Positions 48,027 to 51,822 of a DNA stretch of 64,000 bases are shown one piece after another. The notes beneath the pieces were generated by a model. It worked only from the letters and a program-made list of their open reading frames with translations, was not told the origin of the DNA and did no database searches. Position 1 is the stretch's first letter, and each line of letters starts with the position of its first letter. The stretch covers positions 124,001-188,000 of the forward strand of contig JACZWU010000003.1 in assembly GCA_022571985.1 (NCBI GenBank). The letters run 5' to 3'. The position numbers and the translations under genes are program-made. The DNA is from Candidatus Zixiibacteriota bacterium. GTDB taxonomy: Bacteria > Zixibacteria > MSB-5A5 > GN15 > FEB-12.

Positions 48027-49322
48027 CTATTGCTTTTTCATATACTCAGCTATTTTTTCTGCCAGCATGTCACCGTCAAGCCGAGGGGAGATCTCTTCAG
48101 AAATTCCGATCTGATTCATAAAAAAGTCCGGATAAGACGGAATATCACCCCAACTGTCATTTTTGTCATAGAGAAAATAAATATCCCAGGCTACGTTTGC
48201 TATATCTATAACTTCCTGCCACTCAGCGCCGGTTCGTTTATACCTGTCCCAATAATATGATACGCGCGGGTCATCAAATTCTGTGGAGCGCAAATAGGCT
48301 GAGTACTTATCATCTGACTGCAAAATATCAATCCAAATTACATATATAACTAAATCATCACCAAGATTAGCGCTAATTGCATCCTGAACGACGGAGAACC
48401 CCCGTCTGCAACCCGGTCACGTTGGCGATAGTAATGTTATTAGTCTGACTTTGCCGCTGTCTTTTTCAAAAGCTTCCTGCAACTGCCCAAAATCGAGCAG
48501 GTCACGGGTGCGTAGCGTGTCAGCACCTAAATCGGCATAGGTTTTTCCTACCGACTCTGGTGGTGCATAATTACTGATCTTTAGTTGGGAGATTTTATTA
48601 GTTTCATCAAACTTCATATAAAATCCCATTGCCTGACCCTCAAAATAAATCGGTAAGAGAACACTCGAAGGGTCATTAACTTCTAACTTGCCAGTTTCAA
48701 TCAATTCTCCCCATCTGCCGTGCATTTGTGCTATGAATGAATGATAGTCTTCAACAGTCTTGTCATCGTCATCGTCATCGTCTTTCTTCATTAAGGATAA
48801 TATTAGTTCAGCGTTAGTATCTCTGAATGCCTCGGCAAATTGATCGGCATAAGGCTGGTAGCGTTCCTTAATTTTGCGCTTTTCATGATCGCTCAAGTCC
48901 AGGCCCGAAGGATCCGCTTTATGGGAGTACCAGCTTAAACGCTCGATTTTGTTATCACTATTGATACGAATGTGAAGGTCTAGCTTTTCGCTTTCTGTCT
49001 CGACGAAAACAAGCGCCCTGCTGCCATCGGGACTAATATCGGCGCTGTGAGATATTATTGAGTCCTGCTCATCCACACCGACATCCAGTATATTTTCGAT
49101 TTTCTCAAGCGTAAATTTTCCTTTGAGCTTTTCGCTGAAATTTTCCCGATAGGCAACGGCATCTTTTTTATTATAACTCGTCACCAGTTTGTCGATTATC
49201 AGCTGCAGGCTTGAAGCTTCATTCTGAGCTGTCGAAGCTCCCGGAAACATGGCAAACATCACGGCACATAACGCGACTGCCGCAGCCAATCTCGTAATTG
49301 TGGTTTTAATATTTTGGCTCAT
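48027..49322 (-). CDS. Secreted thioredoxin-fold selenoprotein candidate (U-P-G-C)
   Basis: A 431-aa protein read through one in-frame TGA (48417..48419, codon 302). Residues 1-32 are a signal peptide (ending STAQ); about 35-260 is a helical/beta domain with a DDDDDDD stretch; from about 275 a thioredoxin fold begins, with VRLITLLSPT leading straight into U-P-G-C-R-R-G, then a helix (VVQDAISANLG) and strand DLVIYVIWIDIL. The UGA occupies the first Cys of the CxxC. A hairpin begins 10 nt downstream. An AGGAGG site precedes the ATG. It is the last gene of the MerR operon and likely acts as an exported redox or metal-handling protein. Confidence 0.8.
48390..48406 (-). promoter_or_regulatory. Candidate SECIS hairpin of the Trx-fold gene
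   Basis: On the coding strand GACGGGG and CTCCGTC form a 7-bp stem (one G-U) around a GTT loop, starting 10 nt after the in-frame TGA so the loop is at nt 18. An outer TTGCA/TGCAA pairing extends it. Stem length and loop are the same as in the DUF3179 hairpin. Confidence 0.75.
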
Positions 49323-49346
49323 TCATTTGCCTCCTGTAGTTCATCA

Positions 49347-50333
49347 TTAGTTCCTAGTGCCCGGAACAGTAAATATATCAGGCTTTTTGTTCTGTTCGTC
49401 ATGTCCAAAAATGCTAATGCCAGTTGACAGTCCGAAACGAAGATTCCATTTTTCGGTCAACTGTACGTCTGTGACGTTAATATAAACTGGCAATTGAAAT
49501 TCTGTCCAAAGTCGGATTGCTGATTCGCCGTCTCCAACTAGAGTTTTTGAACCTCCTGCGATAGCATAGATCCAGCTGCCGCCGCTGTTTGGAAACAGGC
49601 TGCCGCTGATTTCGTCCTGAGATCTGCTGACAGCCAGCATACCAAGATTAGCTGTGTAGCTTCTCCCCAGCGGAGCGTAATTAGTTTCCAGTACATAACT
49701 ATAGTGATTTCCTGTTCTTTGATTGTTCGATGAAGATGCCACTACCTGGCGAGCGAAGAATTTGCCGGTCAGAATCCAGCCGGGAGAAATCCCAGCAGCA
49801 ATTATCAGGCTGGCTATAGGGTCTACGGTGCCACTTGCAAAATTACGTTCATCAGTCATGACGTTTGTCACACCGCCGCCTACCGGAAAAGTAGCGCCTA
49901 GTGCTACCTGTCCGTTTACTGGCTTTGAGAACAACCTCGTGCCAAAGAACAGTTGTGCCGTGACCGATAGATCGCCGAAATTCGTCTGGGTTCGGTCAAG
50001 CGATTTGTTAACACTTCGATTGATAATCAGCGGCACCGAAGCAGACAGACTAAGATGGTTTGAAACTCCGAATGACATTGAGGCAGAGATTATATGCGAC
50101 TCTGTCTTCTGCTTAAGTGTATCAACCAAGGTTACTGTCCCGCTGCGCAATCTGTCCCTGCGAGTGAAGGCATAATCCAGACCAAGGCGAAGATCGCCCT
50201 GGTGGATAATTGTACTAACTGATCTGCCGACCGGCAGATTGGGTGTGCTTCAGAGAGCTCATTGAGCTTCAGCAGATTCAACCAGCCAGACTGAAGTTAG
50301 TAGTAATCCGGCAATAGCCCAATTTCTAATCAT
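49347..50333 (-). CDS. Predicted outer-membrane barrel selenoprotein candidate (U-A-L-U)
   Basis: A 328-codon frame open from an ATG at 50333 with an AGAGGT site, containing two TGAs at codons 25 and 28 (50259..50261 and 50250..50252). Codons 1-24 encode a good signal peptide ending AEAQ; the mature start would be U-A-L-U-S-T-P-N-L. Beyond that, amphipathic strands (ISASMSFGVSNHLSLSASVPL; LSVTAQLFFGTRLF) form a barrel like that at 30440..31420, whose mature start is A-C-S-C. Sec28 lies near the position of the paralogue's second Cys. Without recoding, the protein would have lost its signal peptide. It is the fourth gene of the MerR operon. Confidence 0.7.
50222..50239 (-). promoter_or_regulatory. 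Candidate SECIS hairpin of the barrel gene
   Basis: A perfect palindrome: ATCTGCC and GGCAGAT pair (7 bp) around GGTC on the coding strand. It starts 10 nt after the second TGA, with the loop at nt 18 from that TGA and nt 30 from the first, so one hairpin could serve both. Confidence 0.7.
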
Positions 50334-50362
50334 CTGTCTACCTCTATCGTTTAGTTGTAACA

Positions 50363-50686
50363 TCAATGACTTTCTTGCCGGGCTGCTTGTATCGCCCTGC
50401 TTAGAAGTTCTTTTGGTGGAATACCCGACTGACTTTCAGCTGTGCGATAAATTCGGCAGCGCATCGAATACTGCGTAGTAGCATCTTCTTCTATTTCTAA
50501 GTCTTTTCCGTTTACTCTGACTGAAGGTGAACCGAGGAATCTTTTCGCTACCGCATCATCATTGTCCACAACTGTAACGACTTCAATTTTAACATCGTCG
50601 CCAAGTTTAGACATAGTTTCGCGAATCAACTTTTCGGTCGGTTCGCTATTTGGGCAGCCATCAAATACGAGCAATTCTATTTTCAT
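50363..50686 (-). CDS. Small thioredoxin-like protein
   Basis: A 107-aa protein with a thioredoxin-like start: KIELLVFDGCPN (Cys11), a helix, the KIEVVTVVDNDDAVAKRFLGSPSVRVNG strand-loop written across about 33-60 with the cis-Pro-like SPS, and a second Cys in SMRCRIYRT (Cys77), as in small CPN-type Trx-fold proteins found beside mercury and redox genes. No signal peptide. It overlaps the end of the MerTP gene by 4 nt. A metal- or thiol-related role is likely; substrate is unknown. Confidence 0.75.
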   Translation of the reverse strand: MKIELLVFDGCPNSEPTEKLIRETMSKLGDDVKIEVVTVVDNDDAVAKRFLGSPSVRVNGKDLEIEEDATTQYSMRCRIYRTAESQSGIPPKELLSRAIQAARQESH

Positions 50687-51285
50687 CTGTTCCCTCCATT
50701 TTCTTCAACGAGTTCTGCAAGGTATCCAACCGATGCCAAAGCTTCGTTAATAACATTTAAGTCGAGCTGGTCTTGATTATACCAGATGTAAGCTCTGCTT
50801 TCGATAAAACTAGATTTGACACTATCAACCAATCCGGTAGCGGTAATGGCACCGTTGATCGCTATTTCACAGCCACCGCAAGTCATACCCTCTACTTTGA
50901 AAACGGCTAACTGAGCCGATGACGCACTTACCATGACCCGGTTGCTGTCTGTACCGAGGATATAAGGATAAACCGACCAGACGAAAAAGCCCGATACAAC
51001 CAAAGTTGAAATAGTTAACATTATTTTTGTAAAGCTGCTGCCGGCCATTTTGCAGCCGGTAGTCTTGCATTTTTTCTTTTCACGAAAATACAGCCAATAA
51101 GAAAATAGAACTCCCGTTGCCGCCAGCGGCATTATAAACCACTTCACAGATCCAAGCGTAGTTGAAAAACCTGCCACACCCGCTGTTCCTATTCCCAAGA
51201 GTGACAAACCAAGCAGGGCCAGCGGAAGTACGCAGCACGACGAGGCTGCTATCGCTGACAGAATTGAAACTTTTTTAGCGTCCAT
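50683..51285 (-). CDS. merTP: MerT-MerP type metal transport fusion
   Basis: A 200-aa inner-membrane protein with three hydrophobic helices (about residues 8-40, 48-67, 86-110), a Cys-Cys pair (C17-C18) in the first, a loop CKTTGCK (C73, C78), and a C-terminal heavy-metal-associated (HMA) domain carrying FKVEGMTCGGCEIAI (C136, C139). This is the layout of MerT fused to MerP, which take up Hg(II). MerA, merB and merC genes were not found. It follows the MerR gene by 11 nt. Confidence 0.85.
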   Translation of the reverse strand: MDAKKVSILSAIAASSCCVLPLALLGLSLLGIGTAGVAGFSTTLGSVKWFIMPLAATGVLFSYWLYFREKKKCKTTGCKMAGSSFTKIMLTISTLVVSGFFVWSVYPYILGTDSNRVMVSASSAQLAVFKVEGMTCGGCEIAINGAITATGLVDSVKSSFIESRAYIWYNQDQLDLNVINEALASVGYLAELVEENGGNR

Positions 51286-51296
51286 ATTTTTGCTCC

Positions 51297-51689
51297 TCAG
51301 GCTTTGATTAGTTCATCAAGAATCGGACAGTCTTTTAATGTTTTTAAATTCACGCATTGTGAGACCAAATTGGATAAAGTCCGTTCCATCGATTTTAAGT
51401 TTCTGATCTGAGATTGTATTTTATCCAAACGGTTCGCGGCAAACTCTCTTACTTCATCACAGCCGCGGACTTTGCCGTCTGCCATGCTCAATAGTACTTT
51501 GATATCGTTAAGGCTGAAACCTATCTCTTTAGCACGCCTGATAAAACGCAGCCTGAAAACTGCATCTTCATTATATAGGCGGTAGTTAGATTCAGTTCTT
51601 TCGGGCTCAGACATCAAGCCCAGTCGTTCATAATAGCGAATAGTCTGAGCGTCTGTTGCCGATTTTTGAGCAAGAACACCAATAATCAT
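51297..51689 (-). CDS. merR: MerR-family regulator with mercury-type Cys triad
   Basis: A 130-aa MerR regulator. The HTH is visible as SATDAQTIRYYERLGLMSEP and NYRLYNEDAVFRLRFIRRA. Cysteines at 77, 112 and 121 have spacings 35 and 9, the same as Cys82, Cys117 and Cys126 of mercury-sensing MerR from Tn501, which hold Hg(II) as a tricoordinate complex. The start at 51689 is chosen because AAGGAAG precedes it; an upstream ATG at 51716 would add nine residues. It is the first gene of the operon, under the palindrome at 51728..51749. Confidence 0.9.
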   Translation of the reverse strand: MIIGVLAQKSATDAQTIRYYERLGLMSEPERTESNYRLYNEDAVFRLRFIRRAKEIGFSLNDIKVLLSMADGKVRGCDEVREFAANRLDKIQSQIRNLKSMERTLSNLVSQCVNLKTLKDCPILDELIKA

Positions 51690-51727
51690 TCTGTCTTCCT
51701 TCATTAAATTATTCATATATATATACT

Positions 51728-51749
51728 ACCTTATAGTTTGCTATAAGGT
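51728..51749 (-). promoter_or_regulatory. MerR operator and promoter
   Basis: A perfect inverted repeat, ACCTTATAG and CTATAAGGT with a 4-nt centre, lies between a -35-like CTGAAC (51748-51753) and a -10-like TAGTAT (51723-51728) read on the minus strand. The spacer is 19 nt, the long spacing typical of MerR-family promoters, so the regulator probably activates its own operon. Confidence 0.8.
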
Positions 51750-51822
51750 TCAGGTAAATTTTTATTTTTTTTGAATAATTATTATCGCTAGCTGGCGGCA
51801 GGCATAAAGCGTTGTTATATAA

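Follow-up and report, generated by a model that had tools for sequence, protein, structure and literature searches.

What does a mer-type operon do when it encodes neither merA nor merB and ends in two genes that carry in-frame TGA codons? This question is raised by a 64,000-nt stretch of DNA (the window; positions 124,001 to 188,000 of contig JACZWU010000003.1, assembly GCA_022571985.1) from an uncultured member of the phylum Candidatus Zixibacteria with a genome of 2.93 Mb. Five genes on the minus strand of the window, running from 51,716 to 48,027, encode a MerR regulator, a MerT–MerP fusion (MerTP), a thioredoxin-like protein of the DF family, a predicted outer-membrane β-barrel protein and an exported thioredoxin-fold protein with a UPGC site. 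Here, we propose that this is probably a variant mer operon that responds to mercury, in which selenoproteins would perform the envelope steps and a dedicated mercuric reductase is not encoded.

Operon layout and gene order in relatives

All five genes are present on one strand in the order given by an earlier first-pass annotation of this DNA. Of the junctions it described, the 11-nt spacing between merR and merTP, the 4-nt overlap between merTP and the DF gene, and the 24-nt spacing between the barrel and UPGC genes hold. The fourth, a 26-nt gap between the DF and barrel genes, does not: the most likely start of the barrel gene is ATG 50363; this codon overlaps the stop codon of the DF gene, and two congeners carry an ATG at the equivalent position, so that the gap is probably a 1-nt overlap instead. 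The identical five-gene order, which had been suggested as a check, is found again in two more genomes from this genus; a compatible fourth contig carries the end of the barrel gene followed by UPGC. Other loci show variants of this arrangement: merR-merTP-DF-UPGC, with the barrel missing (L054), merR-merTP-CMD-like-UPGC (L060), merR-DF-MerC-barrel (L057 and L058), merR-DF-MerC-HMA-barrel (L075, labelled Bacteroidetes) and merR-thioredoxin-barrel-CsoR-like-merTP (L155). MerC (PF03203) thus substitutes for MerTP in the sister operons with the order MerR-DF-MerC-barrel.

The in-frame TGA codons

The barrel gene (49347–50363, minus strand) contains two in-frame TGAs nine bases apart (50259–50261 and 50250–50252), and the UPGC gene (48027–49322, minus strand) contains one (48417–48419). 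We conclude with high confidence that these codons encode selenocysteine (Sec), because the genome has the required machinery, the TGAs are conserved, TGA and Cys codons exchange at the UPGC site, the sequence beyond the TGAs is under purifying selection, and covarying hairpins follow. The machinery consists of selA beside selB, tRNA-Sec, and a selD that itself contains one TGA. Within the phylum, 113 of 132 genomes have a SelB that scores above cut-off. Outside Zixibacteria, the same holds for 26 of the 33 genomes carrying a TGA form and for 5 of the 15 carrying a non-Sec form (Fisher p = 0.004). Between the window and its relatives, the ratio of nonsynonymous to synonymous substitution rates (dN/dS) past the TGAs is 0.06–0.16.

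Both genes have a hairpin of the selenocysteine insertion sequence (SECIS) type that begins 10 nt after a TGA. In the barrel gene, this hairpin (ATCTGCC-GGTC-GGCAGAT, 50222–50239, minus strand) follows the second TGA and has a 7-bp stem and a GGTC loop; the stem is 5–7 bp in the other 11 copies, and the covariation score is 0.240 versus 0.157 for shuffled alignments, with 0 of 500 shuffles equalling it. The UPGC hairpin (GACGGGG-GTT-CTCCGTC, 48390–48406, minus strand) has a GTT-type loop. Across 21 sequences of common register, 98.6% of its cells are paired, 19 cells have changed on both sides, and again 0 of 500 shuffles reach the covariation score. The UPGC hairpin is clear in this position-specific pairing test only; folding energy downstream of the TGA, compared with synonymous shuffles, did not separate Sec and Cys forms (mean z −0.90 vs −0.73). 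An Rfam search of the whole window returned zero matches. Since the standard code ends both genes at a TGA, they are easily mis-annotated.

A predicted outer-membrane barrel with a Sec pair

The barrel protein starts with a signal peptide, followed by the segment QUALUSTPNLPVGR. Both Sec codons are kept in 12 genomes, in the nearly invariant context AQUALUSxPNLPVGR. Its AlphaFold model has a mean predicted local distance difference test (pLDDT) score of 74.5 and retrieves the COG4313 channel 4rl8 (E 1e-10), as well as FapF; no Pfam family was found for this protein at E values up to 1, a search in which HMMER filters may mask weak matches. On this model, the protein is predicted to be an outer-membrane channel of the COG4313 type, a fold of 12 strands with a lumenal N-terminal segment. 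In 4rl8, a stretch of about 14 residues at the N-terminus is folded into the lumen on its periplasmic side (PMC4493636). Signal-peptide cleavage is predicted before Q35 (counted from TTG, and placed by eye at an AxA motif), which would leave QUALU as the mature N-terminus, so that the two selenolates may line the channel.

The genomic context of the UALU barrel is frequently mer-like: in 8 of the 12 genomes, merR heads the cluster that contains it, together with a gene for DF or another thioredoxin-like protein and usually one for MerTP or MerC. Remote barrel paralogs without Sec have AQNCC or AQTCSC at the UALU position, and a CxxC form was not found. Three Sec-free paralogs of Zixibacteria (L044, L047 and L049; L051 is similar, but truncated) have AQNCC at the mature N-terminus and lie near DUF1573-like genes, together forming a separate conserved gene set.

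An exported seleno-thioredoxin found in many phyla

The UPGC protein consists of a signal peptide, an NTF2-like domain, a DUF3887 domain (28.7 bits against a cut-off of 31.8 for PF13026) and a thioredoxin fold of the TlpA/ResA type with the site U302-x-x-C305. In its AlphaFold model (pLDDT 82.7), U302 opens the first helix of the fold, and structure searches retrieve thioredoxin folds of the TlpA/ResA/DsbE type with Z of about 12. Pfam and NCBIfam gave no family for the thioredoxin domain, neither with the window protein nor with two Cys relatives. A TGA occupies the site in 48 loci drawn from more than 12 phyla; 18 relatives, Planctomycetota and archaea among them, have Cys there. One relative has Trp, and one complete Zixibacteria genome, which is without SelB, has Ser. 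UPGC relatives with Trp or Ser replacing Sec (L113, Calditrichia; L070, in G127) are also without the Cys partner and are apparently devoid of redox activity. In one congener (L053, G033:C7, 8069–6778), the UPGC gene is frameshifted near codon 173, which is either an assembly error or a recent lesion, while the Sec codon and the downstream part are under selection. A search of plasmids and phages for UPGC gave zero matches, and an origin from mobile elements was rejected on these grounds.

UPGC is linked to mer genes in many phyla and in several ways. The UPGC domain is fused in frame to MerTP in two loci (L102 and L137) and to an HMA domain in others (L101, L114 and Planctomycetota). It adjoins DF in L089, and Pyrinomonadaceae have merR, merTP, a disulfide oxidoreductase gene and merC a few kb away from it. 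Among 50 loci outside Zixibacteria with enough flanking sequence, a gene for MerT, MerTP, DF or an HMA protein lies on the same strand within 3 kb of UPGC in 21, while the background is 0.16 per equal stretch. Three further loci deserve mention in their own right. In Pyrinomonadaceae, a protein of 546 aa that has a GDCCVxC (seleno)protein domain (NF041374) at its C-terminus is encoded between merC and the UPGC gene (L090, 6248–7888). A KSB1 genome with a member of the UPGC family (L150, G133) also has HgcA above cut-off. A locus labelled Bacteroidetes (L105) has a mer-like cluster of HMA, MerT, DF and MerB and, some kb on, a UPGC gene of the Cys form together with a gene resembling the barrel.

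A mercury-type regulator and its partners

The merR gene (51297–51716, minus strand) probably starts at ATG 51689, which has a good ribosome-binding site. Counted from this start, its cysteines are at positions 77, 112 and 121, as first annotated, and the triad with spacing 35 and 9 is present in 12 of 12 Zixibacteria-type MerRs examined. This is the spacing of the classical Hg-type MerR, while the Cys spacing of CueR- and CadR-type regulators is different. The protein exceeds the cut-offs of PF09278 and PF13411. The promoter and operator lie at 51723–51753 on the minus strand, with −35 CTGAAC (51753–51748), a 19-bp spacer and −10 TAGTAT (51728–51723), the hexamers having been assigned by eye. 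The operator is a perfect 9-bp dyad, ACCTTATAG-N4-CTATAAGGT (51728–51749), and is near-identical upstream of merR in L052, L053 and L054, as well as in the merR-merTP-merA operon of L064. Orthologous merR-merTP genes lie directly upstream of a true merA in G073 and adjoin merA in G074; the operon of G074 gives the clearest match to the dyad (AACCTTATTG...CTATAAGGTT), and that of G073 matches less well.

The merTP gene (50683–51285, minus strand) encodes what is probably a MerT of the inner membrane joined to an HMA domain similar to MerP. The Cys pairs noted earlier are there, a CC pair (SSCC) and GMTCGGC in the HMA domain, which exceeds the cut-off of PF00403; a C-x4-C pair is present as well. 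Its relatives are 58–94% identical, and one of them adjoins merA. The third gene (50363–50686, minus strand) had been described simply as a small thioredoxin-like protein. This description stands, but the family is not new: the protein is the Cys form of the DF family (seleno)protein NF049942 (105 bits against a cut-off of 70), already catalogued with Sec members and corresponding to the hypothetical protein DF of deep-Sep (PMC12013277).

Mercury as the likely substrate and the missing reductase

Mercury is the best-supported metal, because of the MerR triad, the merA-linked relatives with a shared operator, the substitution of MerTP by MerC, and the fusions and neighbours of UPGC. The earlier proposal of a soft-metal system, probably for mercury, can therefore be narrowed to mercury more specifically, as both triad and operator are shared with merR-merTP-merA operons. 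The first-pass annotation had also seen no merA in the operon. This can now be extended to the whole genome, where no protein exceeds the MerA cut-off (TIGR02053), and MerA encoded elsewhere in the genome was thus rejected. Four MerA-related flavoproteins (oxidoreductases) are present; all are without the C-terminal Cys pair and one has a CVNVGC motif. The MerA-like flavoprotein at L154 (4979–6370, G000:C9), which has GGTCVNVGC and is missing the C-terminal Cys pair, is a candidate for the reduction step that is missing, as an oxidoreductase of general function. MerB was unmatched in 11 genomes, a weak negative, as the control genomes gave no match either. HgcA was unmatched in the source genome (G000), and mercury methylation was set aside on this basis.

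Proposed mechanism

Selenolates bind mercury far more tightly than thiolates, and the antagonism of selenium and mercury in animals is well known. By homology, binding of Hg(II) to the Cys triad of MerR would switch on the operon from its own dyad promoter. The QUALU N-terminus would lie inside the barrel lumen on its periplasmic side, and its two selenolates may there coordinate entering Hg(II) or a neutral mercury species. In the periplasm, the exported UPGC protein, with its Sec-x-x-Cys site, might carry Hg(II) or keep the thiols of MerP and MerT reduced. The metal would then be passed to the MerP-like domain and through MerT, with the DF thioredoxin-like protein as its likely cytosolic acceptor. 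Final disposal would take another route, such as thiol or selenide sequestration, or a general flavoprotein.

More tentatively, and with somewhat less conviction than for the operon itself, we suggest that there may be a selenium-dependent, MerA-independent branch of mercury handling, in which a channel with a lumenal Sec pair is combined with a periplasmic seleno-thioredoxin that occurs in more than 12 phyla and is repeatedly fused to MerT and MerP. If true, this branch would include the first mercury-specific outer-membrane channel. The operon suggests that some bacteria exploit the strong affinity of selenium for mercury in dealing with this metal at their surface. It also makes two matters testable: the role of Sec as a metal ligand versus a redox catalyst, and the passage of mercury across the outer membrane.

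Weighing the mercury reading against alternatives

Several observations weigh against the mercury-responsive operon proposed here. MerT-mediated uptake without MerA should in principle sensitise the cell, and the missing sink is a real gap: such uptake should be harmful, which leaves either a sink or a system that works chiefly in the envelope. Outside Zixibacteria, about half of the UPGC loci have no mer-like neighbour within 3 kb. A single hairpin was found for the two TGAs of the barrel gene. The N-terminal segment of the barrel model has a pLDDT below 50 at residues 40–51, and the molecules that pass through COG4313 channels are believed to be hydrophobic (PMC4493636). Four of the 12 UALU barrels (G055, G071, G073 and G074) are without mer neighbours, so that the function of the barrel may be wider than mercury. 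The regulator and transporter also score below the curated cut-offs: the top NCBIfam model for MerR, TIGR02051, gives 130 bits (cut-off 150.85), and MerTP reaches 19.8 bits with the MerT family PF02411 (cut-off 32.9) and 82.8 bits with the MerTP_fusion model NF033556 (cut-off 180).

The barrel could be a separate outer-membrane protein that just happens to be encoded in this operon, for instance a channel through which hydrophobic compounds pass, leaving only UPGC in mercury handling. The orphan barrels, the sister operon L054 that does without a barrel, and the hydrophobic substrates linked to COG4313 channels would fit such a division. We nevertheless consider it unlikely, given the MerR-headed clusters around most of the barrels and a Sec pair that is a plausible ligand for a soft metal.

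It is less probable that MerR, MerTP and the selenoproteins handle another soft metal, such as Cu(I), Ag(I), Cd(II) or As(III). Two barrel loci (L057 and L075) have a gene for a heavy-metal P-type ATPase next to them, on the opposite strand, and the operator ACCTTAT...ATAAGGT resembles copper-type MerR-family operators as well; the unreached cut-offs for MerR and MerTP would also fit. TIGR02051 is nevertheless the top-scoring regulator model, the Cys spacing is of the Hg type rather than the CueR or CadR type, operators of the same type precede merR-merTP genes that head merA operons in the same clade, and the protein replacing MerTP in sister operons is MerC.

We see only a slim chance that the operon is a thiol/selenol redox system, in which UPGC serves as a periplasmic disulfide reductant in a response to redox or electrophile stress and mercury is incidental. 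A UxxC site on a TlpA/ResA-type fold is indeed the classic arrangement of a disulfide reductase, but the fusions to MerTP and HMA domains, the Hg-type MerR and the shared operator speak for mercury, and a reductant role is compatible with the mercury-responsive operon if UPGC keeps MerP and MerT reduced. A reading of the TGAs as genuine stops, as errors of sequencing or as lesions in pseudogenes, for which the frameshifted UPGC gene of G033 might be cited, is virtually ruled out by their retention in 12 barrel and 48 UPGC loci, strong downstream purifying selection, covarying SECIS-type hairpins and a full Sec machinery, and the two selenoprotein candidates of the first annotation stand on the same evidence.

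Comparison with known systems

The earlier claim of an undescribed system is justified in part. Selenoproteins in mercury and heavy-metal contexts have precedents and DF is a known family, but the UALU barrel and the UPGC thioredoxin are apparently two previously unreported selenoprotein families. Neither has a counterpart in a 2026 catalogue of 119 prokaryotic selenoprotein families, which lists DF, Sec-containing MerT, a UxxU metal-binding protein, Sec-containing HgcA/HgcB and Sao (PMC13188914). A family for either protein is absent from Pfam and NCBIfam, and an earlier description was not found in the open-licence literature. Dedicated bacterial use of Sec in a mer-type operon that has an outer-membrane as well as a periplasmic selenoprotein appears not to have been described before, and the UPGC family adds to this its presence in many phyla with clear SECIS covariation.

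With the classical mer operon, the window operon shares the Hg-type MerR triad, a dyad promoter with a 19-bp spacer and a probable MerT–MerP fusion, and its relatives share MerC (in sister loci) and merR-merTP genes adjoining merA. It differs from the classical operon in being without merA and merB and in having a DF protein, here in the Cys form of a family to which it belongs above cut-off, and two selenoproteins, of which the barrel is predicted to reside in the outer membrane. The channel Pput2725 (4rl8) and other COG4313 members resemble the barrel in its predicted fold, with an N-terminal segment ahead of the first strand. Unlike these channels, the window barrel is without a Pfam match, is 13% identical to 4rl8, and has QUALU at its N-terminus in place of ordinary residues. 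The UPGC protein has the fold of TlpA/ResA/DsbE proteins and, like them, an exported CxxC-type site; it is set apart from them by Sec in the first position, by the NTF2-like and DUF3887 domains in front, and by thioredoxin models of Pfam and NCBIfam that it does not match.

Among the closest parallels are the known Sec-containing metal proteins, namely MerT with Sec, the UxxU protein NF041115, MerT_CopZ_Se (NF045683), SAO and Sec-containing HgcA/HgcB (PMC13188914). The five operon proteins have no match to the Sao and Hgc families; no Sao model (SaoL, SaoC, SaoB, SaoX, SaoP or SaoT) was hit in an NCBIfam scan of these five and five neighbouring proteins, a search limited to these ten within the genome. 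Like the window proteins, these known proteins place Sec, including a UxxU pair, in mercury or metal contexts. Unlike them, the window proteins do so on a predicted COG4313-like outer-membrane barrel and on a thioredoxin fold of the TlpA/ResA type.

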